Assembly (NCBI GenBank): GCA_946807835.1
Contig: OX327702.1
Location: forward strand, 10,850,001 to 10,914,000
DNA: 64,000 nucleotides
DNA from: Ailanthus altissimus
Lineage: Eukaryota > Streptophyta > Magnoliopsida > Sapindales > Simaroubaceae
Direction of reading: 5' to 3'
Below the pieces are notes generated by a model, which ran no database searches, was not told where the DNA came from, and saw nothing but the letters and a program-made list of their open reading frames with translations. This document shows positions 7,523 to 37,790 of the stretch, piece after piece. A program made the position numbers and the translations under genes. Within the stretch, counting starts at the first letter, position 1, and every line of letters starts with the position of its first letter.

Positions 7523-9766
7523 TGTTGGGGTTTAATATTCATTAGTGTATGCATGTGCAATAGTATTTATTGCATAAAATACGTATCTCATGCATATTTA
7601 GTGCTTCAGAATAATTAAATCATACAATAAATACAATAAATAATATATTAGTCATATTAATATATTTAAAGGGTTGAGAAATCACCGAAACATGTAATGT
7701 TATACACATGTATCCTGGGAGTCCACCTGGAGACCAACTCGTTAGCAGTTCTAGTCACCAACTCGGTAGGTTTGGTAAGTTCGAACAGCAGCTCTAAATC
7801 CAGCATTGGGTTTAACATTTAAACCCTTTGAATTTATTTTTTTCTTGATCAACTCTTTGATCAATAAAATAAATTCCTATGTTGTTGTAACTGGTAGCCA
7901 ATCAATGCAAGCAAAAGAATTAATTTCAGCACTTAAAATTAATCTTTAAAATGTATCTATATCTATTTGTTTTGCTTACCCACTTGGCTGGCTACCATTA
8001 GCTCAAGAAAAACAATGTCTCTTCTCCAAGCAAAAACAACACAAAAGAAGCAATTCTTGTCAATTCCTTTTCTCGGCTCACAAGAAAAAAAAATGAAACA
8101 ATTTCATTTTGTTTCCTTGATCAACATGAAAAATAGAAGAATGAAGCAAATTTTTCCTTAAAACGCTTCTCCTACAATTAACACAAATATATCTCAAATA
8201 TATATATATATATATATTAAAATAATAATATAATATTATATTAATAAAAATGAAATGGAAGACAACTACAAGGCATTATAAAAAAAAATAATATTATATA
8301 ATATAATAATATATTATAATGAGATATTTTTTATTATTTAATAATTAAATAATTAGTATGTGAAATTACTATTTTGCTCTTCATAAATAGTTACCTCTAG
8401 TGGGTCTCATCATACCCGCACTTAGGTAAAGTCAATTGAGGGTTCACAATGTATCACGTGTTATTATACAATTAGAAAATAACAATTATTGACAAATTGT
8501 TATATTTAACGCTTAAATACAGACACGGGCGTATTTTTCTAGTAATGCTAGATATTACTAGATTAAATAATTTAATCTGGTACGCTACCCCAGTGCACAA
8601 CAAGTACACTCCATATTGCTGGACTCCTTACGTCCACTCCCGATTCGTCAAATGAAACTATTCCATAAGTCCGTGAATATTGCCCTCACACACACGTCAC
8701 AAAAATACAAATTAGCACGTCAACCATCCAAGTTGAGGTTACAACGTATATGTATAGTCCTTCTGTCATGATATCTTGGATATGCGCGGATATAGATTAT
8801 CACCGTCAAATTCCCACGTGCTCATTCATGTCATATTCCTAGGCTTGTATCTCACTGAACAATATGTGAAAACTCCTTTGCCATACTGTTACACTCTGAC
8901 GGAAACTCTTTCTCGAGATTAATGCTTGTGACCATAAGAACTTTTAAGATAAAGTCTCAAAGCATCTGGATATCTGACTCCCTATGTGAGCTGACAGATC
9001 CCATATATGTTGTACACACCAGACTCTATAAGCATCGGACTATACCCAACGACACCTAGCAAACACACCATGAAAGGTCTGTGACATACACGGAACCAAA
9101 GTATGGTGGATCACTTATAAGCCCACCGTGGCACTCAGGTCAAAGGACCACGTATACTACTCAACTCGAGAGGATCCTCTATTGACGGCTCACATAGGGT
9201 GTCTATCTAAGGTCTTTTATAAGTCTGTCCCATATCTAGTCCTAACTGGATACTCATATATCAATACGAGCTCCAAGTTCACAGTCGGCTAGAAACGACC
9301 ATCTATACCCTATAGGTACGACATATGCTGATCTATATAAGGTATCCACTGACAGACTGGCATCGGTAGAAATAGATCAGGGATAATATTCGAGAACATA
9401 CTTATGCAACTAATATTTCTTGACACCCGATTATAACTCTTGCAACTATACAGTTACTAGTATATTTCTAGGTCTATGTCCCATTACAGATAATGCTCTA
9501 ACTCTTGGATCTTCATTGAGTATTATAACCAGCTAACAATTAGTTGTGCTAACATTTAGCATTTATATCTCAGTGTGGCCAACTATAGGCCCTTATCTAA
9601 ACTCCTTTAGATCAGATTTAAACTTCTTCAAATCATATAATATCTATAATGTTACATTGCATAATATCATTTAAATAGGCATTATCGATTTAATGGGAAT
9701 GTACACTTGTATAAATACATAAGTATATGTACATTCAAGGATGGCACGTAAGTACCAACCTTAACA
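7523..9766 (+). mobile_element. Solo LTR, unclassified family, perfect 5-bp target duplication
   Basis: The 2244-bp segment starts TGTTGGGGTTTAATATTC and ends CCAACCTTAACA, the canonical TG...CA ends. CACTT flanks it exactly at 7518-7522 and 9767-9771. The copy at 29025-31115 is homologous along its length, including GTGTATGCATGTGCWAT near the start and TATATGTAYATTCARGGAT near the end. No internal region is attached, so the superfamily cannot be assigned. TA-rich microsatellite sequence lies around 8190-8340. Confidence 0.9.
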
Positions 9767-11524: not shown

Positions 11525-12810
11525 ATGGCTTTTAGAGACAATTTAGGTTTTCCAACTGTGAACATGGCTGATGTGGAGAAGGAGGAACTGACCCCTGAGA
11601 TCCTGCTGGTCAGGAGAGGTAGTAGGGCCAGAACTAGTGAAGGGGTGTCCACCTCAGTAGGTGACATGCCTTCTTTGTCAGGAGTAGTCTTTAGTGAGGC
11701 TAAGCCGGTCTCTTGTATCAGAAAGAGGGAGAGTAATGAATCAGTGGTCCTTAAAGGGGCAAATGTTGTGAAGGTGGTAGGGTTTGAGCTGGACACCAAG
11801 TATTGTTTGTCTTACTTGATCAAGGTTGACCTGAACCTTATTAGTTACTCTTATGATATCCTCGAGTCGATCACCCATAGGCTGCCTACTGAGCAGGATT
11901 ACCCGAGCAACTCTATCAATGGGGAGGTGGCCATTCATGTGGAGTTTCTAAGGCTGGGCCTCAAGCTCCCCATGTAGCGTTACTTTACTAAGATGTTGGC
12001 CCGCTTAGGAATAGCTCTGTCTCAACTAGGGCCTAATTCCTAGATAGTATTAGTTGGTCTATATGTCTTGTAGACAAGGGCAAGGCAGTCTTCTCCTCAT
12101 TTTCAGGAACTGTTCCACTTGTATCACTTTAGGAACAATGCTAGGAGCCAAAGGGGATTCTACTATTTCTTTTTCCATGTTCTTCAAAATTCAGTCTCCG
12201 ATTGACCTACCTCCATGAAAGACTAGAAGGGAGAATGGTTCTTCGCTAGAAGAGAGTGGGATCAAAGAGTCCCTAAGAGAGATGGGGAGAGTACGTTGTC
12301 CATGCTGGCTTTTACTGTGGATGCATATCTTTGTCTTTTTTGTAGTATATATAAATTTTTTTTATAGCTTGGCTGATATCTCTAACTTTTTATAGTGACC
12401 TGGGCTATTGACGTGGAGGTATCTGAGCAAGCCCTAAAATTGAAAAATCAACGCACTTTAGCACATTTGTCGGGTTCAGGAGTTATTGTCACCAGCCAGC
12501 CTTGTTGGATCAGGCTTAGTTACCTCTGTGTCGTCCCTACCTTGTATCCGAAGTAAGTTTCCCTACCTTGAATTGATCTTTCTTCTGTACTTCTTAAGCT
12601 TACACCATCAATACTATACAGGGATGTCTGAACAAGGTGGTAGTGAGAGTAGGAAATAGAGCTGGACCAAAGGCTCTTCTGCTAGTGGTCGGGGACCTCT
12701 AAACCCTAACAAAGTGATAGGGATGCTGTTCGATTTTGGCTCGAGTGAAAGCCTAATGAGGTGGCCATCCCACAAAAAGGGGTCATCTGGGCAGACTGCT
12801 GGTTGATGAG
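11525..12810 (+). pseudogene. Tat antisense-type ORF, copy 1 (gypsy-type transposon-domain protein), degenerate
   Basis: The frame opens at ATG 11525 and runs 150 codons to a stop after 11974. The reading continues beyond with a QLGPNS motif and an FYYFFFHVLQ-like aromatic stretch before further stops. This order resembles the 'putative gypsy-type transposon' domain (Pfam PF04195, from memory) of plant retroelement proteins. Intron-like junctions fall near 12400 (pyrimidine tract, then TATAG before TGACCTGGGCTA) and near 12620 (TATACAG before GGATGTCTGA). The same boundaries occur in copy 2 at 26.1-28.1 kb, suggesting a multi-exon gene. The Athila element inserted at 12810 splits the copy, which resumes at 25250-25583. 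No function is established. In Tat elements an extra antisense ORF lies between pol and the 3' LTR, and this position fits. Confidence 0.5.
12806..12810. repeat. Target-site duplication of the Athila element (left)
   Basis: ATGAG immediately precedes the LTR start and is repeated exactly at 25245-25249 after the LTR end. It fixes both boundaries and shows this is an integrated element rather than an assembly join. The target was the Tat antisense-type ORF remnant. Confidence 0.95.
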
Positions 12811-14364
12811 TGATCAACACATGAAAATGCATGTTGTTAAGAGATTCAATCACCATTTAATGTCACTAATTTTAGTATTTTCTGTATTTTTAACTTGAAA
12901 TAAAGTGTTCTCCTTAAATTGTGATTAATGAATGTTATTTGGACAGGTTTAGGTAAACTGGACATAACTCTTAATGTAGAAATCAAAATGAAGAAATTCT
13001 TGAACCTGGTGCAACATGACTCAATCTTACACAAATTTGAAGAATAGTGGAAAAGCCAAATCCAACATGTTATGGGCCAACAATTGAGATACAACAAAAT
13101 CGGACTACAACTCTTACCCAGCTTGACCCAACTCATGTATTTGGACCGTATCTCACAAAATATGTACTCAATTGGTATAATTCTTGAAGCTGTGAATTTC
13201 TGACTTAACTATCAACAACTCGTATGTTTATGGTAAAGTCCAAATCAGCCGTTATCATAGACCAAATCGCATTGCAAGTGGGTAAAATGGTTGTTGGCTG
13301 AATTCTGATGTATCTTTAGAATTTTGCTCATATCGCATTGGATACTCATCCAATTTGCATGAAATTAGTGCCTATGGAAAGAAGAGTCAAAATTCTACAA
13401 CTTTCATGTCGGCTATAGAAGCTGAATTGATCATTTACATTATCAAAAATGTACTGCAAGTGGATACACGAGTTATTGGCTTAAAATTATTAAAGATTGA
13501 TGTCATCCATGACATATGTCCATTCATTGCCTATATAAGGAGACCCTTAGGACATTTTTATTAGATAATTCTCTCTTCTTTTATTCTCATTAACATGTAT
13601 TGTAATTTAGGCTAGAGTTTGTAGCAAGGCTAAGAGATGAACTTTTATGTGTAGTAAATCTACTTCCATGCTTTGATTCGGTGTCAAGAGCTATAAATGT
13701 TGTAAGTTTGGTTTTGATTAAACTCTTATCTATTTTATTTTCTATAATCCAGAGGTTATAATTCTCATGTCTCATATATGTTCAGTCATACTTTTCTTAT
13801 GTGATTCATGTTGATTTATAATTGTTACTGGTTACATTGTTTTATATGTTAATCTTTTACTGCAGTATTGTCAATTTGATATATTGTCGATCTTGGATAA
13901 CATGTAAGGGCAATAAATGTTTGATATTCAAATTAATCTTTTACTGCAATATTGTCAAAATGGTATATTGTCGATCTTAGATAACTTGTATAAATAACAT
14001 GATGTGTGTTAATGCTTGCAAAGAGTTTAACTAAATCAAATACATGTGTTATCAAATGTGCTATATATTATATACCTTCTGATTGATTGTTTGGGATGTG
14101 AAACTTTCAGTTGAGTTATAAATATCGAATCAAAGTATAGAGTAGATTTATAAAGCATAATTGTGATTCTCAAAGCCTTGCTTAAATCATCATAAGACAT
14201 TTTTCTCAATTCATAGACAATTCTATCTCATCCGTTTAAATCAATTAACCCTTTGCTACTGCTTTAATATTTTACTTCACTAACCTATTTTGCCAAGAGC
14301 TTCCTCGTGGGATCGACACCTCAATCTATACTGCGATAGCTGCGTTATATTTTGAGCGTAAACA
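12811..14364 (+). mobile_element. 5' LTR of the Athila element
   Basis: This LTR begins TGATCAACACATG and ends GAGCGTAAACA. It aligns gap-free with 23691-25244. A TATA box at 13532 and the position of the PBS just after 14364 define the U3/R/U5 layout roughly. Homologous Athila-type LTR tails are not otherwise repeated in the window. Confidence 0.95.
13532..13539 (+). promoter_or_regulatory. TATA box of the Athila LTR promoter
   Basis: TATATAAG lies in the middle of the LTR and is conserved at the equivalent place in the 3' LTR (24412-24419). Transcription would be expected to start about 30 bp downstream, near 13565. Confidence 0.6.
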
Positions 14365-14370
14365 AAAATT

Positions 14371-14388
14371 TAGCGCCGTTGCCAGGGA
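14371..14388 (+). promoter_or_regulatory. Primer binding site, tRNA-Asp type
   Basis: TAGCGCCGTTGCCAGGGA lies six bases after the LTR end. It differs at two positions from the usual Athila PBS, and both differences are G to A. This is where minus-strand DNA synthesis would be primed. Confidence 0.8.
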
Positions 14389-15196
14389 GGCACACTAAGC
14401 GAAAGTCGGTTGCGATTATAAATACTAAAGTGGTAACTTTGTACATTTTCTTTTCTTTGTAAAATCTTAGTTTTATTTCCTTTGTTGTAATTTATTTATT
14501 ATTCATGGTTGGTTCTACCACCTAATTTATTTTATTTTCTTTAGTTAATTTGTTAAATGTTATATTATCTTAATGGCTGGTTTTACCGCCTAATTAGTTT
14601 ATTTTCTTTTATCTATTTATCGCACTTTATTTTCTTTAGTTTATTTATTGCATTTTTTTTTAATGGCTGGTTTTACCGCCTAACTTCATTCACTTTCTTT
14701 TATTTATTTATTGTACTTTATTTTTTTAGTTAATTTGTTGTATTTTTTTTTTTTTGTGGTTGGTTCTACCGCCTAACTTAGTTTCTTTATTTTTTATTGT
14801 ACTTTATTTATTTATTGCACTTTTTTATTGCACTCTATTTTCATTTTCTTTTACGTATTTATTGCACTTTATTTACTTTAGTTAACATGTTGTATTTTCT
14901 TTTTATGGCTGGTTCTACCGCCTAACATTTTATTTATTTACTTATTGTATTTTCTTTTTATTATTTATTTATTGTACTTTTTTTTTCGTACTTTATAGTC
15001 TTTTGTTTAGTTATTGTATTTATATTTCATGGTTGGTCTTATCACCTAACATATTTCTATTTCTTGTTGTGTTTATTCCACTTCTTAATTTTCCTTAAGC
15101 ATTTCTTTCCTTAAAATATATATATATATATATATATACAAAAAAAAAAAAAAATTAGGATGTATACATCGACCTAGAGACAAACGAGGAAGATTT
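14389..15196 (+). repeat. Athila leader with six copies of a TGGYTGGTTYTACCGCCTAA motif
   Basis: A motif close to TGGCTGGTTCTACCGCCTAA recurs about six times (near 14505, 14574, 14659, 14759, 14905 and 15030), separated by T-rich spacers of variable length. GGT and ACC flank a short loop, so each could form a small stem. A (TA)n run at 15117-15138 and an A-run follow. No coding sequence is supported. Confidence 0.75.
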
Positions 15197-16258
15197 GTGA
15201 GAGAACTAGAACTAGAACTAGAACTAGAACCACCCCCACAATTTGTAAGTGAAGAGAATTCACCTTCTAGTTCATCTTGTAATTCTAACACAATGAGCCA
15301 ACACGAAGAAAACCCTGTTAGAACTCTAAAAGATTACTTGCATCCTACTCGCACAGCCACACCATCATGCATTATATTTCCACCTAACATACCACATTCG
15401 GATTTTAAACCTGGAATGATACAACTTCTTCCCACTTTTCATGGTCTAGATAGTGAAAATCCTTATGTACATGTTAGGGAATTTGAAGAGGTAATTGCCA
15501 CCTTCCATAGCCAACCTGAAGCCATAGACACTGTTAGACTTAAATTTTTCCCTTTTTCTTTGAAAGACAAAGCAAAGAGTTGGCTATACTCTTTGAGGCC
15601 GAGGTCTATAGGAACTTGGACAGAAATGACCCAAGAATTTTTCAATAAATACTTCCCACAACACAAAACTAATGGCCTGAAAAGATAAATTTCTTCATTC
15701 TCCCAAAAAGATAGTGAAACCTTATATCAAGCATGGGAAAGGTTTAAAGAGTTGTTAAATCTGTGCCCTCACCATGGGTATGAAAATTGGCGCTTGGTTA
15801 GTTATTTCTATAAGGGACTCACAATTAGAGAGCGCCAATTTGTTGAGATGATGTGTAATGGAGAGTTCCTTCACAAAGATCCTGAGGAAGCCATAGAATT
15901 CCTTAATGACTTAGACGAAAAAGCCCATACATGGACTGGACCTAGCATTACTGAAAGCACAAATAGGTCACGACCCAATGGAGTTTTCCATCTTAGGGAA
16001 GAGGATAACCTCAAAGCCCAATTAGAGGTCTTAACTAGGGAGTTAGAGGCCTTGAAAACCAAAGATAGAAGGGTCACCCACACGGTTGCTAGAGTTGAGT
16101 CACACAATGTCTATTTTGTCTGTGGAGGAGTGGAACACTTAGCTCAGGATTGTCCCACGTATAGTGAGATGAGAGGGATATATGAGGAACAATGTAATGC
16201 CCTAGGGATGTACAAGAAGCCTTATTCACCCTACTCTGAAACATATAATCCTAGCTAG
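15197..16258 (+). pseudogene. gag: Athila gag (capsid/nucleocapsid), two in-frame stops
   Basis: Gag forms the virus-like particle and packages the RNA. The frame contains the Athila-type capsid region, with LLPTFHGL near residues 75-82 and AWERFKELLNLCPHHGYENW after the first stop. The first ATG in frame is at 15293; the codons before it are a GAACTA hexanucleotide repeat (15203-15228) reading Glu-Leu, so the true start may be 15293. Stops lie at 15686-15688 (TAA) and 16256-16258 (TAG), with no frameshift. A nucleocapsid knuckle is visible as CGGVEHLAQDC, but the first cysteine of the expected CCHC appears to be tyrosine. Downstream domains stay in the same frame, so this was one gag-pol polyprotein. 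Confidence 0.85.
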
Positions 16259-16405
16259 AGAAACCACCCAAATTTCAGTTGGAAATCTGACCAACAAGCC
16301 AACAACCAATGGAAACAAGAACAACAAGCACCCAAGTCTTATGTTGCACCTCAATATAATGCACGGCCAACTAGGAGTTCTTTAGAGGATACATTACAAG
16401 CATTT

Positions 16406-17605
16406 ATGGAGGCACAAAGTAAGACTAATAAAAAATTTGAAACAATTCTTGCACAGGTGGTGGACGAAAACAAAGAAATCAAGAGTCAAATCACAAAGTT
16501 GACCAGTGCCTTAACTATACAAGAGCGAGGTAAGTTTCCATCTCAACCTCAATCCAATCCGAAAGGACAATTCATGGCACAAGCTTCTACTTCTAATGTT
16601 CAAAATCTCAAAGAAGTCAATGCCATTACTACTCGAAGTGGTAAAATTGTAAGTGAGCCTACTCCTGAAATTAACACATCTATGAGTAGTAAAGACGCTC
16701 CCCTTGAAAAAGAGGCCACAATGGAAAAAGAGCCCGAAAGTAAGTTTTCAATCCCAGTGCCTTTTCCTCAAGCTCTTCGACCGGTTGGGAAAAATTCAGA
16801 AATTCAAGGTGAGATTTTGGAACATTTGAAACAAGTTAAAATTAACCTTCCCTTGTTACATTTGATTAAGCAGGATCCAACTTATGCCAAAGTCATCAAG
16901 GATTTATGCACTATCAAAAGAAAACACCATGTGAAGAAAACTGCATTTTTGGCAGAACAGGTAAGTGCAGTGATTGAACAAAAGACACCACCCAAGTATA
17001 AAGACCCAGGATGTCCCACAATCTCCTGCCAAATTGGGACACATGAGTTTGGTCAAGCTTTATTGGACTTAGGAGCAAGTGTAAATTTAATGCCTTATTC
17101 TATTTACTTGCAGTTGGGACTTGGCGAGATTAAACTAACATCTATAGTCCTACAATTAGCTGACCGATCAATCAAGAAACCACGGGGAATAGTAGAAGAT
17201 ATTTTGTTGCAAATTGATAAATTTTACTACCCTGTTGATTTTCTTGTTTTAGATACTCATTCTATTGTTAACATGGAGTCAAAAATCCCTCTTATTTTGG
17301 GGAGACCTTTTCTAGCCACTGCTAACGCTCTTATTAATTGCAAAAATGGTCTAATGAAATTATCTTTTGGGAATATGACTCTTGAGGTAAACATTTTCAA
17401 TATTGACAAACAAACACGAGAAGAAGACGAGTGCTATCATTCATATATAATAGACACACTTGTAGCAGAGGAAGCTTATAAAAATCATGGCTATGATTCT
17501 TCGAAAAACCTTCTCAATTTTGATTTTGAAGAATTGTATTATCCTAATGTAACAACTGATGTGTTTAGTATTTTTGACTCACAGGATAAACGGAATCGAT
17601 TTTAG
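16406..17605 (+). pseudogene. Athila gag C-terminal region and aspartic protease
   Basis: This open segment continues the gag-pol frame after the TAG at 16256 and ends at a TAG at 17603. Residues 1-120 are a charged linker typical of the Athila Gag-protease junction. The protease follows: the catalytic box is LLDLGAS (Asp at residue 221), then the ILGRPFLATA segment, a hallmark of Ty3-type retropepsins. DLGAS rather than DTGAS is usual for Athila. The enzyme cleaves the polyprotein inside the particle. Catalytic residues look intact here, but translation would have to pass two upstream stops. Confidence 0.85.
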
Positions 17606-17623
17606 CAGCCACACTTTGAAGAG

Positions 17624-18499
17624 TTGCCACGAGAGAGGGAGAGACCAAAACCATCAAACCTCGAGACACCACAAGTTGAGCTTTCTTCACTGCCCAAAGG
17701 TTTGAAACACGCATTCTTGGGACCAGGTGATACCTTTCCTATCATCATTTCTTCTGAACTTAGTGCTGAACAAGAGAAAAAATTGATAAAATTGTTAAAA
17801 GAACATAAGTCTGCACTAGGTTGGACCATAGCTGATATTAAAGGTATTTCTCCATTGATATGCTCCCATAGAATTCATTTAGAGGAAGGTTCCCAACCTC
17901 GTAGAGACCCACAAAGAAGACTTAACCCAACAATGAAAGAAGTAGTGAAGAAAGAGGTCTTGAAACTATTAGATGCGGGTATAATCTACCCAATTTCTGA
18001 TAGTCAATGGGTAAGTCCAACTCAAGTAGTTCCTAAGAAATCTGGGGTTACTGTTGTTGAAAATGAGAATGGGATACCTGTTCCAACTAGGGTAGTAAAT
18101 GGTTGGAGAATGTGTATTGATTATAGAAAGTTAAACACAGCCACTAGGAAAGACTATTTTCCATTGCCTTTTATCGACCAAATTTTAGAACGTGTAGCTG
18201 GACATCCTTTTTATTGCTTTCTTGATGGGTATTCAGGGTATTACCAGATTGAGATAGCTATAGAAGATCAAGAAAAAACTACTTTTACATGCCCTTTTGG
18301 TACTTATGCTTTTCGTAGAATGCCATTTGGATTATGTAATGCACCAGCTACTTTCCAGCATTGCATGTTGAGTATTTTCTCTGATATGGTTGAAAAATGC
18401 ATGGAAGTCTTTATGGATGATTTGACTGTTTTTGGTAATTCTTTTGATTTGTGCCTACTTAACTTGAAATCTGTTTTGAGTAGATGTGAAGAAAAATGA
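17624..18499 (+). pseudogene. pol: Athila reverse transcriptase, palm and fingers
   Basis: This segment continues the same frame six codons after the TAG at 17603 and ends at a TGA at 18497. The RT order is complete: a WVSPTQVVPKKSG block, the MCIDYRKLN motif, FLDGYSGYYQI, the RRMPFGLCNAPATFQ motif and the catalytic FMDD near residue 265. FMDD followed by VFG is characteristic of Athila. The polymerase residues appear intact, so the stop at 18497, just before the thumb and RNase H, is the main lesion. RT copies the element's RNA in the cytoplasmic particle. Confidence 0.9.
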
Positions 18500-18502
18500 C
18501 TT

Positions 18503-20569
18503 GTGCTAAATTGGGAGAAATGTCATTTCATGGTATCTTCAGGAATCGTTTTGGGGCACATTGTATCTGAAAGAGGGATAGAGGTTGACAAGGCAAAAAT
18601 TGAATTAATCTCTAAATTACCTACACCTAAAACGGTAAAAGATGTCCGATCCTTTCTTGGACACGCTGGCTTTTACAGAAGGTTTATACAAAAATTTTCT
18701 GCCATATCTAGACCATTGTGTAACCTTTTGCTAAAAGATGCAGAATTTACATGGACACAAGAGTGTAAGGAGGCATTCCGAATACTCATTGCCAAACTCA
18801 CCACCGCTTCTATCATGCAATCACCGGATTGGAAGCTCCCATTTGAAATTATGTGTGATGCAAGTAATTATGCTGTAGGAGCAGTTCTTGGGCAATGGAG
18901 GAAGGGAAAACCCTTTGTTGTTTATTATGCTAGTAGGACTTTGAATGATGCTCAAATGAATTACACTACTACTGAAAAAGAACTATTAGCTGTTGTTTTT
19001 GCCTTAGATAAATTTCGTTCTTATTTGATTGGTTCACCCATTGTTATTTTTATTAACCACGCAGCCCTTAAGTACCTTCTTTCTAAGAAGGATGCTAAAA
19101 CCCGTTTAATTAGATGGATTCTTATTTTGCAGGAATTTGATATAACCATCAAAGATAAGAAAGGCGTTGCTGATCATCTATCCCGCCTTGAGTTCTCTGA
19201 CTCTACTGATTTGCCACCCATTCGAGACGATTTTCCAGATGAACATCTTTTTGCTATAAGCCAAATACCTTGGTATGCACATATCGTAAATTATTTGGTT
19301 TGTGGTGAACTTCCATCTGACTGGAGTGCACAAGATAAGCGTAAGTTCTTGGTTGAGGTACGTAACTTTTATTGGGATGATCCATATCTTTTCAAATACT
19401 GTCCTAACCAAATCATGAGACGTTGCATTCCTGAAAGTGAAGTTTCTAGTGTCTTAAATTTTTGCCATAGTGCTGCTTGCGGTGGCCATTTTTCTATGAA
19501 GAAGACAGCTGTGAAAATTTTACAATGTGGTCTTTATTGGCCTACTTTGTTCAAAGACACTAATAATTTTTGTCGTTCCTGTGAAAGATGTCAAAAGTTA
19601 GGTGCTTTATCTCGAAGAAATATGATGCCTCTTAACCCTATTCTTATTATCGAGATATTTGACTGTTGGGGTATCGATTTTATGGGTCCTTTTCCTTCAT
19701 CTTTTGGCTATCTTTACATCCTTTTAGCTATTGACTATGTATCAAAATGGGTGGAGGCTGTAGCTTGTCGTACTAATGATAATACAACTGTGGTAAAATT
19801 CTTAAAAGAAAATGTGTTATCTAGGTACGGTACGCCACGTGTCATCATTAGTGACCAAGGAACACATTTTTGTAATCGTTCTTTTGAAGCTTTGATGCGC
19901 AGGTATGGTGTTCTTCACAAAGTTTCCACTGCATACCATCCACAGAAAAATGGACAAGCTGAGCTAGCAAATAGAGAGGTTAAACAGATTTTGAAAAAGA
20001 CGGTTAACCCGAATCGCAAAGATTGGTCTCTACGCCTTTCTGATGCATTATGGGCATATCGTACTGCATACAAAACCATCTTAGGAATGTCCCCATACTG
20101 GCTTGTTTATGGGAAAGCTTGCCATTTACCTGTTGAGCTAGAACATAAAGCTTATTGGGCTGTCAAAGCCCTTAACTTTGATTTGAATGCTGCAGGTCTC
20201 CAGAGAAAGTTACAATTGTCAGAAATAGAAGAGCTACGAAATAACGCATATGACAACTCCAGAATTTACAAAGCTAAAATGAAAGTAGCTCATGATAAAC
20301 AGATCTCAAGGAAACACTTTGAGCCAAATCAACGGGTCTATCTTTATGATTCTCGATTGCATTTACACCCTAGAAAGTTGAGATCTCGATGGACTGGTCC
20401 ATTTATGGTAAGACATGTTTTTCCTAATGGTGCTGTTGAAATAGAAGACCCCACTGATGGACGGACTTTCAAAGTGAATAGACAGCGGCTAAAAAGCTAC
20501 GTGGAAAAGGTAAACGACTTTATGTACCTAGGCGAGATCCCTCTTGTGGATCCTGTCTATCGTGATTGA
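18503..20569 (+). pseudogene. pol: Athila RT thumb, RNase H and integrase (688-codon open segment)
   Basis: The frame resumes one codon after the TGA at 18497. RNase H spans about residues 110-230, with CDAS (Asp119), EKELLAVV and a DHLSR end. The third catalytic position, normally Asp in a DHAALKYL-type box, is Asn185 here, which should damage RNase H. Integrase follows: the zinc module uses H322/H329 and C360/C363, and the catalytic triad is D392 (WGIDFMGPF), D451 (ISDQGTHF) and E487 ([10 protein letters not shown]), giving the D-35-E spacing. The C-terminus is complete to 20569. Integrase thus looks functional in sequence while RNase H does not. Confidence 0.9.
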
Positions 20570-20689
20570 TCAGGTTCAATCTATCTGTACCATATTTTAT
20601 ATTTTGTCTATATTTTATCTATATTTTATCTTTTGACTTTCTATTTTTGCTTTTATTTTCTTGCAAGTTTTATTTTACTTTATTTTCTT

Positions 20690-20774
20690 CTTTTTATTTT
20701 TTCTTCAGTGTGATTTTATTTCCCGGTCAAGTGGTGGATACGGTACTCCGTGACTATTAAAGTCGGTTTTTCAG
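20690..20774 (+). promoter_or_regulatory. Candidate 3' splice sites for a spliced mRNA of the downstream ORFs
   Basis: A long pyrimidine tract ends in TTCTTCAG (AG at 20707-20708), and a second, weaker one ends in TTTTTCAG (AG at 20773-20774). No ATG lies between either site and the ATG at 20829, so splicing here would make the cysteine-rich ORF the first one on the mRNA. Env-like genes of plant retroelements are thought to be expressed this way. The donor was not identified. Confidence 0.4.
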
Positions 20775-20828
20775 TTCCCTAAAAACTGTCCCTCAAACTG
20801 TGCATTCATCTCTTTTCTTTCTTTCAAA

Positions 20829-21377
20829 ATGGATCGCATTCTTGTCAACCTTAAAAAACGTTTTCCTTCATTTCCTCAAAATGCTCTACTTAAGATTTAT
20901 AAAGAACGGTGTGAAAGACTAAGGCTATTGATGTTGGGTAATATCCCTGTGGACCTTCGTTGGTTAATTGAAGCCAAGGTTCGGTTGTCTGGTGAGTTTG
21001 AAAATAATTTTGTTTCTCATATGTCTGGTCTTGGAAGAAGCTCCTATGCCAAAAGGCGACGAGCAAAAAGGTTACAAGTCTGTCATAAATGTGCTCGATG
21101 GAATTGTAATCGGAGTTGTCATTCTTTAGGATTCGTATCTAGAAATCGAGAAGACAAAATTCAGTTCATTAAGGATGGACTGAGTAAGGAGTCTTTGGAT
21201 GATATCCTATTGACTCTTGAGACGCATCCCTGTGGGCTCGTGCAATGTGAACTTCTCGATTTATGGAACAAATTCAAAAATGAACATCAACGGTATAGTC
21301 TCGGGAATCTGACTCTAAAAGACCCTGTTTGTCAATTTATAAGAAAATTGGATGGGAAGCCTATCCTCGACCCATAG
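20829..21377 (+). CDS. Cysteine-rich basic protein resembling plant RNA-virus nucleic-acid-binding proteins
   Basis: An intact 182-aa ORF begins 260 bp after integrase in good start context (A at -3, G at +4). The centre carries a Gly-rich, very basic stretch (residues 66-81, with KRRRAKR at 75-81). It is followed at once by a cysteine cluster C85-x2-C88-x4-C93-x3-C97, then an NR-rich segment and a FIKDG turn at about 113-117. This order (basic nuclear-localisation-like patch, C-x2-C finger, NRSC, glycine) resembles the cysteine-rich nucleic-acid-binding proteins of carlavirus-type viruses (Pfam PF05515 family, from memory). Several of those suppress RNA silencing and enter the nucleus. The last 65 residues have no match I recognise. 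It occupies the usual env-like position, but no signal peptide or membrane segment is present. Kinship to the viral family is inference. A generic retroelement zinc-finger protein is the alternative. Confidence 0.6.
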   Translation: MDRILVNLKKRFPSFPQNALLKIYKERCERLRLLMLGNIPVDLRWLIEAKVRLSGEFENNFVSHMSGLGRSSYAKRRRAKRLQVCHKCARWNCNRSCHSLGFVSRNREDKIQFIKDGLSKESLDDILLTLETHPCGLVQCELLDLWNKFKNEHQRYSLGNLTLKDPVCQFIRKLDGKPILDP

Positions 21378-21631
21378 AGGGCGTTTAAGCCGTTACTGGA
21401 CGTAAAACCAGAGGAAAATGTGAGCCACAATCACAACTACTTGTAAATACATGTGTTTTAATTTCAAACTTTATTTTATGAATAGTAGGGCTACTCATGT
21501 AGATGTCTTAAATTCAAATCGTTTTGTTCAATAATGCATGTGGGTCATTATGTTTAAATTTTTGTGTTTTATTTTTAACTCTCTTTTGACAAACTGTCGG
21601 GTTACCATAATCATTGTTATCATTTGGCACT

Positions 21632-21640
21632 CTATAAATA
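21632..21640 (+). promoter_or_regulatory. Candidate TATA box of the LOG-like gene
   Basis: CTATAAATA lies 53 bp upstream of the LOG ATG. A start about 30 bp downstream would give a short leader with no intervening ATG. This suggests the gene has its own promoter, perhaps acquired with it, although upstream promoter elements were not examined. Confidence 0.4.
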
Positions 21641-21692
21641 CAGCACCTCAGTTTCTTCATTTTCATATATTGAGATAAAGGTGAGAGTAGAT

Positions 21693-22340
21693 ATGGAGGA
21701 AACCCAAGTTCGACAATTTCGAAATATATGTGTATTTTGTGGATCTAGTCCTGGGGAGAGTAAAGTGTTCGTAGAAGCAGCAAACAATCTAGGAAAAATA
21801 TTAGCTGCAAGAAAAATTCATTTGATTTATGGAGGAGGTAGCCTTAGGCTAATGGGGTGTGTGTCAACAGCTGCACATTTAGGAGGAAGTCAAGTTTTAG
21901 GTATTATTCCTACAGTTTTGGCCGTGGGAAACCTGACCGAAAAAACAATAGGGGAAGAATTACAAGTCTCATCCATGCATGAACGTATAGCCAGAATGCT
22001 TTGCAATGCAGACGCTTTTATTGCTTTACCAGGTGGTTTTGGTACCTTGGAAGAAATTTTTCAAATTGTCTCTTGGGCCAAACTGAATATCCACCGAAAA
22101 CCCATAGGTTTGTTGAATGTTAATAACTATTTTGATTGCTTACTTTGTTTTCTTGATCAAGCTGTGGAACAGAATTTTATTTCACATTCGGCGCGACAGA
22201 TCCTGGTTTCTGCTACTGAGGTGGATGAATTGATTAACAAATTACAGGCAGTTATCTACGAACCTGACCCAGCAATAACTCGGATCGATTGGTCAGTGGG
22301 CCTTAACAAGCGAAAATTGGATCTGACACTTCGTTTGTAA
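21693..22340 (+). CDS. LOG-like: LOG-like cytokinin riboside 5'-monophosphate phosphoribohydrolase inside a retrotransposon
   Basis: LOG enzymes release active cytokinin bases from their nucleotides in one step, in cytosol and nucleus. This intact 215-aa ORF matches a full-length plant LOG (usually about 210-220 aa). Visible motifs are CVFCGSSPG (13-21), YGGGSLRLMG (46-55), MHER (95-98), the signature PGGFGTLEE (113-121), then KPIGLLN (136-142) and FISHSAR (162-168). Two usually conserved positions differ: Arg52 where LOGs have Gly in the GLMG turn, and Ile99 where they have Lys after MHxR. The ATG at 21693 is chosen because it gives the normal LOG N-terminus with G at -3 and +4; the frame is open further upstream but lacks an ATG. 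Plant LOG genes normally have several introns and this one has none, so it was probably captured from spliced mRNA. It lies 315 bp after the cysteine-rich ORF, in the same strand and frame register, between integrase and the 3' LTR. Activity is not proven. Confidence 0.9.
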   Translation: MEETQVRQFRNICVFCGSSPGESKVFVEAANNLGKILAARKIHLIYGGGSLRLMGCVSTAAHLGGSQVLGIIPTVLAVGNLTEKTIGEELQVSSMHERIARMLCNADAFIALPGGFGTLEEIFQIVSWAKLNIHRKPIGLLNVNNYFDCLLCFLDQAVEQNFISHSARQILVSATEVDELINKLQAVIYEPDPAITRIDWSVGLNKRKLDLTLRL

Positions 22341-22473
22341 ATTTTTCTTTTTATTTATTTATTTATCAGTACCATCATTTTAGTTTATATTTGCTTAAGT
22401 GTCTCTCAGGTTTGTTTCTTTCAAATAACTGGCGTTTCAGGTAATGTCTCCTATACTTTATCTCTCTCTATTT

Positions 22474-22513
22474 AAACATTGAGGACAATGTTTCATCTGG
22501 TTTGGGGGGAGGA
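22474..22513 (+). promoter_or_regulatory. Hairpin plus internal polypurine tract
   Basis: AAACATTG and CAATGTTT pair perfectly across an AGGA loop (22474-22493). Nine bases later comes the purine-rich GGTTTGGGGGGAGGA. The same arrangement occurs at 44854-44893 in the gag-only element, with a compensating base-pair change in the stem. It may be a second, central initiation site for plus-strand DNA. Confidence 0.6.
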
Positions 22514-23682
22514 TAGTAGACATACGTTGTATTTTGCGAAAAAAAAAAAATTGTGGTCCGACATTTGATTAAAATGGCAGAGTAAAGAGTTCATTCTTGA
22601 ACTCTTGAGATGCATTCTAGGTCAAATTAGAATGGCAGAGTAAGGAGTTTTAGTACTAACTTTTGAAATGCATTTTAACTAACTTTTTGTTATTTTGTTT
22701 TATATTTCATGCATTGTCGTTTACTGCTTGTAGTCTTGGTAATTCTTGTATAAAGGAATTTGCTTTTCTGCCTAAGTATGATTTCAGAATTGTTTAGGTT
22801 GAGTCACTGTTTCTATCTAGGTTACTAAAGAATGACTTCCAAAATATTTTTGACCACAATGCTAAGCCTTTGGTAAGATGGATGATTCAATTTATATAGC
22901 CAAGAGAATTCCCATGTTTAAGTATATATTTTTCTAATCTCACATATCTTTTGTGAGTAAGTGGAAAGGTTGAGAAAACAGCTTATGAACCTTCATTGAT
23001 CCTTTGAATTGATTAATTTTTGTTTAGAATGATATTATTTGAATTAAGGGATAAGTTGGTTGCATTTGTGCATAATATAATTTGGTGAAAAACCTTTGTA
23101 ATGCTTCTTTGTATTCTTCAAAAAAAAAAAAAAAACACAAAAATACCAAAAACAGAAAAAAAAAAAAAAAAAGCAATTCAGTTTAATAAAGTCTTCATTC
23201 AATTTTATAAGACAAATATCTTGTAAAACAGTTTTCTCACCAAGATTATAATTGTATTATTCTCACAAGCCAATTAAAGTTCTAAAGTTAGCGTATGATA
23301 TGAATAATTAATTTTTAAACAAATAATTTTTCTATCTTCGGATCAATGTTAGTTTATATGTCTGTCCTTAAAATTGACTTTTTCTTGAGTGCTTAACTAT
23401 TTTCCAACTCCATAAGAGAAGTCCTAACCTTTTAAACAGTCATACACCTGTGAGGATATGGAGTTGAGGCTTTTACTCAGAGAAATTCTCAAGGCTATAT
23501 CTATTGTGGTTTGTGGTTAGATGGTTATGGCTTAGTTCACACACACACAAATTATGGAAGTTGTAATTGAAAAAACCATGATAGCAACAGTGATCTCGAA
23601 CTGACGTTTTGATTGAAATGCTTAGGTAGTTTTACATATTCTATTTACGCTTGAATTGCTAGAGACTACCAATAAGCTGGTT
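22514..23682 (+). other. Athila 3' non-coding region
   Basis: No gene is supported. Two copies of a 58-bp unit containing AATGGCAGAGTAARGAGTT lie at about 22570-22620 and 22628-22678. A-rich runs sit at 23119-23135 and 23155-23172. The stretch separates the internal polypurine tract from the terminal one, which is longer than needed for replication signals alone. Confidence 0.6.
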
Positions 23683-23690
23683 GGGGGCTG
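23683..23690 (+). promoter_or_regulatory. Terminal polypurine tract of the Athila element
   Basis: GGGGGCTG directly abuts the 3' LTR. It is shorter and less pure than the internal tract at 22500, but its position at the LTR edge makes it the expected plus-strand primer site. Confidence 0.5.
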
Positions 23691-25244
23691 TGATGAACAC
23701 ATGAAAATGCATGTTGTTAAGAGATTCAATCACCATTTAATGTCACTAATTTTAGTATTTTCTATATTTTTAGCTTGAAATAAAGTATTCTCCTTAAATT
23801 GTGATTAATGAATGTTATTTGGACAGGTTTAGGTAAACTGGACATAACTCTTAATGTAGAAATCAAAATGAAGAAATTCTTGAACCTGGTGCAACATGAC
23901 TCAATCTTACACAAATTTAAAGAATAGTGGAAAAGCCAAATCAAACATGTTATGGGCCAACAATTGAGATACAACAAAATCGGACTACAACTCTTACCCA
24001 GCTTGACCCAACTCATGTATTTGGACCGTATCTCACAAAATATGTACTCAATTGGTATAATTCTTGAAGCTGTGAATTTCTGACTTAACTATCAACAACT
24101 CGTATGTTTATGGTAAAGTCCAAATCAGCCGTTATCATAGACCAAATCGCATTGCAAGTGGGTAAAATGGTTGTTGGCTGAATTCTGATGTATCTTTAGA
24201 ATTTTGCTCATATCGCATTGGATACTCATCCAATTTGCATGAAATTAGTGCCTATGGAAAGAAGAGTCAAAATTCTACAACTTTCATGTCAGCTATAGAA
24301 GTTGAATTGATCATTTACATTATCAAAAATGTACTGCAAGTGGATACACGAGTTATTGGCTTAAAATTATTAAAGATTGATGTCATCCATGACATATGTC
24401 CATTCATTGCCTATATAAGGAGACCCTTAGGACATTTTTATTAGATAATTCTCTCTTCTTTTATTCTCATTAACATGTATTGTAATTTAGGCTAGAGTTT
24501 GTAGCAAGGCTAAGAGATGAACTTTTATGTGTAGTAAATCTACTTCCATGCTTTGATTCGGTGTCAAGAGCTATAAATGTTGTAAGTTTGGTTTTGATTA
24601 AACTCTTATCTATTTTATTTTCTATAATCCAGAGGTTATAATTCTCATGTCTCATATATGTTCAGTCATACTTTTCTTATGTGATTCATGTTGATTTATA
24701 ATTGTTACTGGTTATATTGTTTTATATGTTAATCTTTTACTGCAGTATTGTCAATTTGATATATTGTCGATCTTGGATAACATGTAAGGGTAATAAATGT
24801 TTGATATTCAAGTTAATCTTTTACTGCAATATTGTCAAAATGATATATTGTCAATCTTAGATAACTTGTATAAATAACATGATGTGTGTTAATGCTTGCA
24901 AAGAGTTTAACTAAATCAAATACATGTGTTATCAAATGTGCTATATATTACATACCTTCTGATTGATTGTTTGGGATGTGAAACTTTCAGTTGAGTTATA
25001 AATATCGAATCAAAGTATAGAGTAGATTTATAAAGCATAATTGTGATTCTCAAAGCCTTGCTTAAATCATCATAAGACATTTTCCTCAATTCATAGACAA
25101 TTCTATCTCATCCGTTTAAATCAATTAACCCTTTGCTACTGCTTTAATATTTTACTTCACTAACCTATTTTGCCAAGAGCTTCCTCGTGGGATCGACACC
25201 TCAATCTATACTGCGATAGCCGCATTATATTTTAAGCGTAAACA
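23691..25244 (+). mobile_element. 3' LTR of the Athila element
   Basis: Aligned with the 5' LTR it has the same length and 18 substitutions by hand count. It begins TGATGAACACATG and ends AAGCGTAAACA, followed by the ATGAG duplication. The TATA box is conserved at 24412-24419. Most differences are C/T or G/A transitions, as expected for methylated plant repeats. Confidence 0.95.
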
Positions 25245-25249
25245 ATGAG

Positions 25250-29024: not shown

Positions 29025-31115
29025 TGTTGTCAGGGGATCTAATATACGTGGGTGTATGCATGTGCTATTGTGTCTATTGCCTATTATATGTATCATATAC
29101 GAATTTAAATATTGCGGAAGTATGAAATATACAATAAACACAATAAATAAATATATTAATCATAATAATATATTAGAAAGCTAGAGAACTCACCTTAACA
29201 TGTAACGTTATACACGTATTTCTTTGGAATTCGCATAGAGACCAACTCATGTGCAGTTCTAGTCACCAATATGATGGGCTTGGTGAGCTAGAACAGCAGC
29301 CCGATATCCAGCACGAGATTAACTCTTAATCCCCAAAATGACCGGGTGTGTGTTTGTATCATTTTCTCCAAAAGGATAAGAAATGGAGATTGAAGCAATT
29401 CTCAATTGCTTCAATTAGAAGCATAGAGAAAATGAAACAATTTTATTTTCCTTTTTTTTTCTTTTCTTCTTCTTCTTTCTTCTTTTTCTCCATTTCTCTT
29501 CTCCATTCTCTCGGCATAACATACTTCTCTCTCTCTCTCTCTCTCTTTATATATATATAATATAATATATTATATGATATAAATAATAATATAATGGGTG
29601 CCAACTATTTGGTACCCAAATATAATAATAATATATATAATATAATATAATATAATAAAGAGAGAGAATGATTATTTAATTGATAATTAAATAATTATAG
29701 TGTGAAATGACCATTTTTTTCTCATGAATAGTTACCAAGCATACCCCCTAGTAGGTCTCACCAAATTTTACACTAGGGCAAACTCAATTGAGGATTTATA
29801 ATACGTTACGTGTCATTATACAATTAGTAAATTATTATTATTAACTAATTATTGTATTAACACTTAAATACAGACATGCACGCATTCCCGTGCTAGTTCT
29901 AAATATTGCTAGATTAAACACTTTAATTTGGCATGCTGCCCTAGTACACAATGAGTACACTCCATATCACGGGACTCCCTAGCTCCTACGCCGGATTCGT
30001 CAAATAAAACTATTCCATAAGTACGTGGGCAATTTCCCATGCACACGTTACGGATATACAAATTAGTACGTTAAACCATGCAAGTTGAGGTTACAACGCA
30101 TACGTATAGTCCTTCCGTCATGATATCCTAGATGTTCAGGGATATAAATTATCACTGTCAAATCCCCTAGTGCTAATCAATGTCTTATCTCTAGACTTGT
30201 ATCTCACTGAACAGTATGTGCAATATCCTTTGCCATATTGTTCTACCCTAGCGAAACTTTTTCCCGAGATTTATGTTTGTGGCCACAAGACTTTTTGAGA
30301 TACACTCTCGAAGCATCTGGATATTGAACTCTCTATACAAGCTGACGAATCCCATATTTGTACACACTGGACTTCATAAGCATCAGACCATACCCAGCAA
30401 CACCCAGTGGTCATACCATGAAAGCTCTGTGACAGGCGTGGAACCAAAATATGGTGGATCAGTTACAAGCCCACTGTAGCACTCAGGTCAAAAGAGCACG
30501 TTTACTACTCAACTCGAGAGGACCCTCCGTTGACGGCTTATATAGGATGTCTATCGGAGGCCCCCGTTAGTCTGTACCATATCCAGTCCTAACTGGATAC
30601 CCATATGTCAATACGAGTTCTAAGCTCATAGTCGACTAAGAACAATCATCTATACCCTATAAGTATGACATATGCTGATCTATATTAAAAGTATCTACTG
30701 ACAGACCCGCATAGGCAGAAATAGATCAGAGATAATTATTCGAGAACATACTTACGCAACTAACATTTATTGGCACCCGATGCCAACTCTTGCAACTATG
30801 CAGTTACTAATATATTCTCAAGTCTATGTCCCATTACAGAAAAGGCTTCAACTCTTGGATATGCTGAGTATTATAACAAGCTAACCCTTAGCTGTGCTAA
30901 CATTTAGCATTTATATTTCTCAGCATGTTTAACCATGAGCCTTTACCTAAACTCCTTTAGATCTGATCCGAACTCCTTCAGATCTACAATGTCTGTAACG
31001 TTACATTGCATGGTACCATATAAATAGGTATTAGCAATTTAATGAGAATATACACTTATATAAATACACAAGTATATGTATATTCAGGGATAGCACATAA
31101 GCACCGACCCTAACA
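29025..31115 (+). mobile_element. Solo LTR, unclassified family, perfect 5-bp target duplication
   Basis: The 2091-bp segment starts TGTTGTCAGGGGATC and ends CCGACCCTAACA. AGTTG flanks it exactly at 29020-29024 and 31116-31120. It is homologous in the same orientation to the solo LTR at 7523-9766. A (CT)n run at 29529-29556 and TA-rich repeats around 29558-29660 lie inside. It interrupts the hairpin tandem array. Confidence 0.9.
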
Positions 31116-33900: not shown

Positions 33901-36673
33901 TGTAATATCCAATCCCTATTAGTAGTATTGGCGCCTAGATTTCGGTATAGAACAAATAAGACACCGTAGGGTTACTCAATTTTAACCCTATTAGAAATAT
34001 TCCCTTTATAGTGCACGTGAGAGATATTAGACCTAATTTGATAATTTCACCCTCGATCGGTGCGCCGGACGACCCTAGAATATTTTTAGAATTTTTCTCT
34101 ATTGGCTTGGAAAAGAAAATTCTAAGTTACTACATGAATTTCCATTTAAGGTTTATGAATGGAACAAGCCTTTGTTGAGAAACATAATCCATATATTAGA
34201 GAATGGACCAATTAAAAGAAATCTTATGGATTGCCAAGTTGGAAGTTCTAGTTAGTTCTTTGAACTATTCTAACTAAATAGTTACAAATGAACTAATTAC
34301 ATAATTAGTTTTTAACTAATGGCAAATTAGAAGTTTTAAGTAAGTTGAAGGGCAAAATGGTAAATTGAGGGAGCACTATATATATGTTAGAAGTGTGTAG
34401 AAATTTGAAGAGAGATCAAAACCAACACTTAGCCAAAAAAAAGAGAGAAATTCGAGCTTCAAAGGGGGTGCTACTACAGTGACTATTCAAGTTTTTTTTT
34501 CATGATTTTTCATGTGTAATCAAGCCAAATTAAGGTTACAAACCAATCCCTAAGCTCAATTGAAGTCTCTATTAGTGGAAATTCAAGAAAAAGAGGTAAG
34601 AAAAGCATCTTTTATGAGTTTGATAAGTGAGAATTCAAGAATGTGTTAATTGATGTTCTTATGTGTATTCTTGACTTAGATTAAGTTAAATTCTAGTTTG
34701 GAGATTGAAGGAGTCATCAATTTGAAGAAATTGGCAAGGTGAGAATTAGGGTTTTTGGTGATTTTGTTGTAGAGATTTCAATTGATTGTAATTAGGGCTT
34801 TAGAATGAAATTGGCATGATTTTGTTGTAATTGGAACAAGAAATTGAGAAAAGGAATGTGTTGGAACCTAGGGTGAAATTCTGCCACTTTAGGGAAGTTA
34901 GGAATTGAGTGGTGTTTTGATTGAATTGTTGTGTGTAAATGATGCATTTTGTGAATGGAATGTATATGGTTGGTGAAAAACCCAAAAATGAAGAAAATAG
35001 GACATAATTGTCCATGTTGGAAAGGTGAAGGGCAAGTATATCCAATCAAATGATAAGGTGTTCAATAATTTTCAGGGCGCCGGATGGTGAGTTAGTTTCG
35101 ATTATGGCTCCGTAACTAAAATCGGGAAGTAGTTTACCTTCGGGCTTTGTATGCCAATTAGGGCATTTAGTAGTTAAATGAGATTCTAGTGTTCGATTTG
35201 GTTCTAAATGTCATTTATGGCGCATAGGTGAGGATAACCGAGAGTGTTAACAGGAGCAGGAATCGGGAGCGAAATTGGGCGCGGAGCGGTAGTGAGTGGA
35301 AATCTGCCATTTCTTTTACTTTTCGGTTATTATGTTTTCGCACAATGACTATGTATGTTTTGTGAGCTTTCAATGCATAAACATGATTTATGATCTTGAT
35401 ATATTCATAGACATGCTTTTACATGATCGATTTGTGAAACAGTTTGAAAATTACTGCATTTGTTTTAAGGCCATTGGTACCCTCAGATTATAGTGGTGAT
35501 GATTGTATTAGACCCGGCCGGTATATCCCGTGCACATGGGCAGGTCTTGGGGGTGTGTCACTAACTCTGGAAAGTCGGAATGTCGAGTCATGTGAGTCGC
35601 TCTATGTGTACGGGATATTGTCTCGCTATATGCATGCGATGTAGGATTCCGCTGCGTAGCCAGTGAGATGTCTTGAGATGTCACTGGGGGTGCTGCTAGT
35701 TGAGGTGCCCCGTGACCTACTCACGTATGCGGTGCTAGTTGAGTCGTTGCGTGGGTATAGAGCTTTAGGGTTACCATTGGTACAGTTTAGAAAGAAAATG
35801 GCCGAGCGAGGATTTTACTAGTTTTCGATTTACCGATAGCATTTATGCATTTATATGCACACAGCAGTTATTATGTTATACAGATTCTGAATATAGTTTT
35901 CCAAAGATGTAGATAAAACCCGCTCGGCAAGATTTCATTAGCATATGATATTAGAAACCGTTTTACAATTTTACATCAGTTTTAGAAGCATAATTTCTGC
36001 ATGTACTTTAGAACTTGCTATCTTTGTATAATATTCTTGTAATTGAATTCTCATTTACACTCACTGAGCTCCTTTAGCTCACTCATTTTATGTTTTATGT
36101 TTTAAACCCCTTTCCCAGGTGTAGGTCTCGGAACGCAAGCTGCTGATTCTTCTATCGCTGAGTAATGGGCCGAATCCAAAGATAATTTTTGTACATGTAA
36201 ATGTGCTAATAGCACTCTTTACTTTATGCATAATAGTTGTAGGCATGTATATTTGTAAGTATGTGTTGAATCAAGAAGAAGAGATTTCTAGTTTATGATA
36301 ATCGTTTTTACTTTTTATGATTATGCTTATTTTGTGATTTATACGAAATAATTGAGTTGTGTTGGATTTGATTTGAAAAGGACCGGAGGTCCGAATTGGT
36401 AGAATTGAGATGTGTTGGAATTAGAAGTGAAATTTCTTTGCAGGTTTATATGGATTTTCCGAAAAACAGGGGAAACTCTGTCCGTTTGTTTTTAAAACTA
36501 AGATGTCGTTTTCATGTATATTACTAGATCTTCTTAGCAGTAACAAGAATTAAAAAGGGGTTCGCCTCGCGGAATTTTTTAACTTACCCAATTAGGTTCG
36601 GAGGAACTTCCGTCGGGGTGCCCGGCAGGGCCGCTGGGATATATAGTAGAGGGTCTCGAGTCGGGTCTTGTCA
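33901..36673 (+). mobile_element. Solo LTR, Tekay/Del-like chromovirus family
   Basis: The 2773-bp segment starts TGTAATATCCAATCCC and ends GGGTCTTGTCA. Flanks GTAAT (33896-33900) and GTAAG (36674-36678) are an imperfect target duplication. A TATATA run lies near 34378-34384 and could be the LTR TATA box. It is inserted between the Tat RNase H and integrase regions. Confidence 0.88.
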
Positions 36674-37439: not shown

Positions 37440-37790
37440 GGACTATTTAATCAGTCGGCCAGATAGATCGAGCTTGTGCAGGATTTATCTCAATAATTGG
37501 TTGGTTAACACCACGATGGTATGCACTTGAAAATAGGGTCGTAATTTTCTTACAATCGTGATTAATGCAAAAGCCAATTTTGTTTTTGGGGGGGTGGAGG
37601 GTATCGAGATTCTGGCTCGAAAAGGGCCCTACTAGTGTAGTACACTGGTTGTTGTACCCTTCCCTCCTCTCTGGCGAGAACTGAGGTGACAACCCATTCT
37701 GAGACTTCTAGGTATACCACCAAAGACTCTCTTTGTACGGAAATTGCCATGTGTACTGGTTCAGAGGGGTAGGTCTACAGCCGCTAAAAG
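37440..37790 (-). pseudogene. Tat first RNase H domain, degenerate
   Basis: The minus-strand frame gives a LVVYLEVSEWVVTSVLAREE segment followed by QPVYYTSRAL, the start of a Ty3-type RNase H as found in Tat elements. The expected first catalytic Asp is replaced in this lineage (YL rather than CDAS), which is why Tat relies on the second RNase H. The C-terminal half is frameshifted. Confidence 0.65.

Follow-up and report, generated by a model that had tools for sequence, protein, structure and literature searches.

That plant Gypsy elements can carry LOG is already known from Alvarado-Marchena et al. (2022, PMC9289625). In the parts of that paper drawn on here, a YgdH (LOG) domain is reported in Gypsy consensuses of Citrus sinensis and C. 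clementina and, under less strict filtering, of P. trichocarpa; the link between YgdH and LOG is named, and the result is said to agree with Steinbauerova et al. 2011. The same parts describe an AlkB-type demethylase of orchid Gypsy elements, likewise a host-type enzyme carried as an extra domain, although the enzyme is a different one and only two Phalaenopsis species are concerned there (PMC9289625). The element described below resembles those of Citrus and Populus in having a LOG-family extra domain in a Ty3/gypsy context, and the statement of the original prediction that no plant retroelement with a LOG gene had been described could thus not be upheld. The consulted parts of PMC9289625 contain no pocket, tail or NABP analysis. 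In the literature on LOG in retroelements, as far as covered here, PMC9289625 is the only paper that we found to connect the two, and we found no mention of a pocket replacement or an LxLxL tail, nor, there or in the part covered on carlavirus-like NABPs, of a retrotransposon NABP-LOG neighbourhood. Within similar bounds no report was found that connects a retrotransposon with a carlavirus nucleic acid binding protein, and in PMC7264820, PMC6317226 and PMC11963269 the main text mentions neither cytokinin nor YgdH nor carlavirus. As far as these sources go, the replaced pocket, the LxLxL tail and the NABP neighbour are apparently new points beyond the known occurrence of LOG in Gypsy elements.

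The window (the whole 64-kb stretch of DNA that was analyzed) contains a complete LTR element with an open, intron-free LOG-family gene in the env position, just as had been predicted, and the predicted ATGAG duplication bounds it (Table 1). Its LTRs, target site duplication (TSD), PBS-like stretch and RT-RNaseH-integrase order place the element in Ty3/gypsy, whereas the Athila label is our assumption, based on the original prediction and on a PBS that we take to be of the tRNA-Asp type. In a direct comparison the two LTRs are 98.8% identical (18 differences, of which 16 are transitions, and no gaps); the BLAST match overran their limits by one base, a chance identity. An LTR divergence of 1.2% means that the insertion is fairly young: at a rate of 1.3e-8 it corresponds to about half a million years, and to a longer time in slow-evolving trees. 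Four premature in-frame stops interrupt the gag-pol frame (its gag start is provisional), every one of them in the same frame; they lie in gag, gag/protease, protease/RT and RT, so this copy is probably non-autonomous. Despite the broken gag-pol, both ORFs downstream of integrase (NABP-like and LOG) are open. Nonetheless the LOG copy of this element is itself ageing, given the state of gag-pol and a non-consensus residue in its glycine loop.

Table 1. Features of the LOG-bearing element, in positions of the window
Feature	Position	Strand	Basis
LTR retrotransposon	12811-25244		ATGAG TSD and paired LTRs
Left TSD ATGAG	12806..12810	.	sequence
5' LTR, 1554 b, TG...CA	12811..14364	+	self-BLAST and direct comparison
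PBS-like stretch (approximate limits)	14370..14388	+	sequence, behind 5' LTR
gag-protease-RT-RNaseH-integrase frame	15197..20569	+	Pfam on ORF pieces separately, stop count
Open NABP-like ORF of 182 aa; basic stretch and cysteine cluster conserved	20829..21377	+	Pfam
TATA-box-like CTATAAATA	21632..21640	+	sequence, noticed post hoc
LOG-family ORF, 215 aa (P0001)	21693..22340	+	Pfam, NCBIfam, structure match
Codons R98-I99: catalytic Arg retained, pocket Lys replaced by Ile	21984..21989	+	alignment
Codons E120 to Q124: E120 and catalytic E121 retained, pocket Glu replaced by Gln	22050..22064	+	alignment
C-terminal tail KRKLDLTLRL, basic and LxLxLxL	22308..22337	+	alignment, tail counts
3' LTR, 1554 b	23691..25244	+	self-BLAST and direct comparison
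Right TSD ATGAG	25245..25249	.	sequence

Other repeats surround the element. On either side it is flanked by a direct repeat (8207-9766 and 29548-31115); the two are about 1.57 kb long, share 80% identity and are probably the LTRs of an older element that hosts this insertion. A further family of about 2.8 kb with 76-93% identity occurs at 4560-7337, 33901-36673, 49608-52374, 52793-55563, 60205-62786 and 62787-64000, in both orientations, with some copies almost abutting and with TGA...ACA ends in four of the six; these copies probably represent a different family, as LTRs or solo LTRs. Pieces of other elements are present on the - strand (37784-38203, 56647-57228 and 58082-58477), comprising an integrase zinc-binding domain (6e-14) and two reverse transcriptase matches that are weak and under the Pfam cut-off.

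The LOG ORF lies between the end of integrase and the 3' LTR and consists of 215 open codons starting with ATG; of the aligned relatives without a gap at this column, 98% likewise have a Met. Membership of the LOG family, as predicted, is borne out by Pfam (Lysine_decarbox/LOG, PF03641, 2.8e-38), by NCBIfam TIGR00730 (169.5 bits against a curated cut-off of 96.35) and by the best solved relative, AtLOG3 (2a33, 2.3e-62). The model of P0001 (pLDDT 84.0) superposes on 2a33 with a TM score of 0.94 (by target) and an rmsd of 1.4. All three boxes that had been pointed out (CVFCGSSPG, YGGG and PGGFGTLEE) are present, so that a profile score above the cut-off, a LOG fold and PGGxGTxxE with the catalytic Arg/Glu coincide in one protein. 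For the NF058542 equivalog (cut-off 300 bits) P0001 reaches 118.6 bits, and an ordinary plant LOG (P0242) likewise just 132.4. AtLOG3 (At2g37210) and AtLOG8 (At5g11950, 1ydh) share the fold, PGGxGTxEE and catalytic Arg/Glu with P0001, at 53% and 49% identity respectively in the fold alignment. No second LOG was found in the window at E 1e-3. The TATA-box-like CTATAAATA, noticed post hoc, lies 61 b upstream of the LOG ATG and occurs in the window once on the + strand and once on the - strand.

To compare residues we used P0001 together with the best 120 of 7899 matches (out of 8000 candidates scored), ranked by likeness to P0001 and here called retro-type LOGs, and as ordinary LOGs the best 120 of 7998 matches to a profile of AtLOG3 and AtLOG8; both sets are top-ranked matches and hence not random samples. 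Arg99 and Glu122 of C. glutamicum LOG have been proposed to act in catalysis, and Met96, His97, Lys100, Glu125 and Trp129 to make up the prenyl-binding site; according to the parts of PMC4979012 used here, AtLOG3, OsLOG and CpLOG have the identical five site residues. The catalytic Arg is found in 115/121 and the Glu in 119/121 retro-type LOGs; Arg, GGxGT and Glu occur jointly in 103, and the other 18 miss at least one of the counted catalytic-motif residues. The pocket has fared differently: two of the five proposed prenyl-site residues are replaced in P0001, which consequently lacks the canonical pocket of a cytokinin-activating LOG (Met, His, Lys, Glu, Trp), while Met95, His96 and Trp128 are retained. 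Lys100 and Glu125, both kept in AtLOG3 and AtLOG8 and in all 120 ordinary LOGs, are nearly always lost together (neither in 115 of the 121 retro-type LOGs, Lys only in one, both in five, namely P0003, P0004, P0054, P0087 and P0091). Of the other site residues Trp is present in 119, Met in 97 and His in 63 of the 121. In the glycine loop P0001 has an Arg, a residue found in six of the 121 (Gly in 114). It was predicted that the protein could raise active cytokinin where the element is transcribed; two replaced prenyl-site residues and the unusual glycine-loop residue make such an increase doubtful for P0001, even though the catalytic pair is retained.

The second difference is found at the C-terminus. 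LxLxL occurs within the last 12 residues of 98/121 retro-type against 0/120 ordinary LOGs (about 1% per protein is expected by chance), and a basic pair in 112/121 against 6/120; the tail is likewise absent from P0242 (98% identical to AtLOG3) and P0243 (At5g11950). Among the 23 proteins without LxLxL, about six are one residue away and the others are shortened or end otherwise. For the 99 of 121 proteins with a length of 214-218 aa, Leu stands at -5, -3 and -1 in 98, 95 and 97 members, and Lys at -10 in 95, while -8 is occupied by Lys or Arg in 97; the preceding linker is variable, whereas the tail is sharply conserved. The model has a pLDDT below 50 over residues 202-215 of P0001, as would be expected of a disordered linear motif. 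EAR repressors are known to bind TOPLESS. The P0001 tail contains an EAR-like motif, since LxLxL or DLNxxP is given as the EAR-motif repressor signature in the parts of PMC6479872 considered here. On this resemblance the tail is predicted to bind TOPLESS-type corepressors, with the reservation that LxLxL is a short pattern that may have another use.

A tree was built from 31 of the 121 retro-type LOGs, 20 ordinary plant LOGs (out of the 120) and two bacterial proteins. In this tree the retro-type LOGs form one clade (support 99/98, recovered in 100% of 200 bootstrap trees) and the ordinary LOGs another (98/91). The ordinary rows stem from the best 120 matches to AtLOG3 and AtLOG8, so other types, such as LOG5/7, are missing from it. 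The joining point may lie with the LOG8-like rows (p-AU 0.272) or with the LOG1/3-like rows (p-AU 0.268), neither of which is rejected, and the rooting is unsure because the tree program flagged the bacterial rows and a single retro row as long. The proteins P0087 and P0091, which are the two in the tree out of the five with the old pocket, are the first branches of the retro-type clade, which suggests that the pocket probably changed inside the clade. P0091 combines the old pocket with the LxLxL tail, and the tail may therefore be the older change; in P0087 the old pocket goes with a C-terminus that is basic but lacks LxLxL.

With respect to origin, a recent capture from a host LOG, as implied by the original prediction, is disfavoured and was not borne out: the clade stands apart from all 20 sampled ordinary plant LOGs (99/98). 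An origin from spliced mRNA is plausible, although the lack of introns says little, as any gene that passes through retroelement RNA loses them. The 28 relatives of alignment A2 (29 sequences including the window's own, the others picked by eye from the 120 listed relatives for spread and full length; A3 was composed in the same way) are 58-97% identical to P0001 and have open frames of nearly constant length, and all 29 match Lysine_decarbox. Among the matches listed we counted, by eye, at least 33 separate 90% clusters in Reevesia (with 16 chromosome labels) and at least nine in Diplodiscus. The concern that the ORF might be a single copy is thereby removed as far as related proteins go. In P0003 (Xanthoceras) a piece resembling the gag-protease linker of this element lies between two LOG parts (18/36 identical, E 8e-5). 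Hosts among the matches listed include Paulownia and Rehmannia (Lamiales) and rosids of the families Malvaceae, Salicaceae, Sapindaceae, Meliaceae and Cannabaceae; with such a wide range, the LOG gene has either long been with the elements or moved between hosts. Populus proteins annotated as LOGL10 (P0060, P0070 and similar) also belong to the retro-type matches, P0060 being part of the tree; perhaps these are element genes labelled as host genes.

Between integrase and LOG the element carries an NABP-like ORF which, like the gag-pol stops, is absent from the original prediction. Over its basic, cysteine-rich stretch it matches Carla_C4 (PF01623, 2.8e-7) and Viral_NABP (PF05515, 1e-6), both above the Pfam cut-off (30.9 against 20.9 and 29.3 against 23 bits), and among the 29 members of alignment A3, including the window's own, Viral_NABP is found in 25 and Carla_C4 in 23 (E 1e-3). 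The corresponding proteins of carlaviruses are known to bind nucleic acids and to suppress silencing; the ORF described here differs in that each profile is matched in part only and in being encoded by a retroelement. It has 521 relatives at E 1e-3, the named ones among the best 120 being plants, and in this family a conserved basic stretch is followed by a cysteine cluster. Its structure model is poor (pLDDT 50.7), and a search of solved structures with the alignment gave two matches (E 0.32 and 0.33) that we take as noise.

Contig sizes suggest that the NABP-LOG pairing exists on three further contigs. The closest LOG among the matches listed (P0002, 97% identical) is on a contig of 8723 b, and a 95% NABP match (P0122) is on a contig of equally 8723 b. 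Within the best 120 of 7899 LOG and best 120 of 521 NABP matches, and restricted to contigs of 2-50 kb (thus excluding smaller ones and whole chromosomes), three of 19 LOG contigs are identical in size to one of 43 NABP contigs, where 0.12 is expected by jittering (P ~0.0002); their LOGs are 97, 69 and 61% identical to P0001. By eye, some equal sizes are seen below 2 kb as well. Copy number, these three matches, the hybrid P0003 and the literature lead us to infer that most LOG relatives sit in retroelements. Scans of viral_contigs found no relative, whereas in genome_contigs the NABP alignment matched a single contig, L001 (DAIEQH010000041.1, 194-2347). This contig combines a retroelement integrase with a plant-type NABP and is filed under a Candidatus Nomurabacteria MAG, which makes it a probable contaminant. 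In the 983 b after its NABP no match to LOG fell below E 0.01 (in the window LOG starts 316 b on), which indicates that not every element of this kind includes LOG.

If the protein were a plain cytokinin activator, as originally predicted, ordinary LOG activity wherever the element is transcribed (e.g. in meristems) would favour passage through the germ line. The retained catalytic Arg/Glu, phosphate loop and LOG fold, together with Met95, His96 and Trp128 of the prenyl site, agree with this, but the joint replacement of Lys100 and Glu125 (C. glutamicum numbering) in 115/121 and a His97 that is kept in just 63/121 do not, and the new tail would be left unexplained; we regard this reading as doubtful. 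The opposite view, that the protein is no longer an enzyme and that the LOG fold is a nucleotide-binding or dimerising scaffold for a nuclear, corepressor-binding tail as its working part, accounts for the lost pocket residues and for a tail more sharply conserved than the linker before it. A mere scaffold would have no need of the catalytic residues, which nonetheless persist (Arg in 115/121, Glu in 119/121), and this makes the explanation rather unlikely.

It might also be argued that a retrocopy of a host LOG was trapped by chance in one element family and is now drifting as a pseudogene, a view to which the broken gag-pol and the glycine-loop residue of this copy lend something. We give it very little credence, however, since the A2 relatives remain open at near-constant length down to 58% identity (a point weakened by the preference of predicted-protein databases for open frames), active-site residues and tail are retained, the clade is separate from the sampled ordinary LOGs, and reports from other genera exist. 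A related possibility is that the clade consists partly of host genes with many dispersed copies, one of which was picked up by the element: the annotation treats some relatives as ordinary genes (LOGL10 of Populus is an example), and the listed relatives are known here from their protein sequences. Against it stand the dozens of clusters in one genome, the three contig-size matches with NABP and the Gypsy consensuses with a LOG domain in the consulted parts of PMC9289625, so that we consider it quite improbable.

The reading that we prefer, at about even odds (a probability of roughly 0.5), is that P0001 belongs to an old accessory gene family of LOG-bearing Athila-like elements of eudicots and encodes a nuclear, substrate-shifted LOG-type hydrolase. 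According to this reading the gene would be kept in the env position behind the carlavirus-like NABP ORF, and its transcription would either be that of the whole element or start at an internal promoter. The protein would fold as a LOG-type Rossmann dimer and would still split a nucleoside 5'-monophosphate between base and ribose. The base/prenyl pocket would have been rebuilt, and for that reason the preferred substrate would probably no longer be the usual cytokinin nucleotide, or be so to a lesser degree. The basic LxLxL tail may direct the protein to the nucleus and bind TOPLESS-type corepressors there, with a putative benefit to the element. A tentative extension, to which we would assign a small but real chance, is that NABP and LOG act as a two-gene cassette for host manipulation on LOG-bearing Athila-like elements. 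In that case the nuclear, TOPLESS-recruiting LOG-type hydrolase would have a pocket adapted to a different nucleotide (perhaps one that is modified or serves in signalling, with a use in silencing or defence), and the elements would have spread the cassette across much of the eudicots.

The use of the extra genes carried by plant retrotransposons is, to our knowledge, mostly unknown. Here the extra gene is a recognizable enzyme with a solved relative; most of the listed relatives share its pocket change, which is directly testable, and from its tail a partner in the nucleus can be predicted. The question why an element keeps a hormone enzyme can thereby be turned into two simple ones: which nucleotide is cleaved, and is TOPLESS bound? 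Some of the relatives that are now annotated as cytokinin enzymes may need relabelling.
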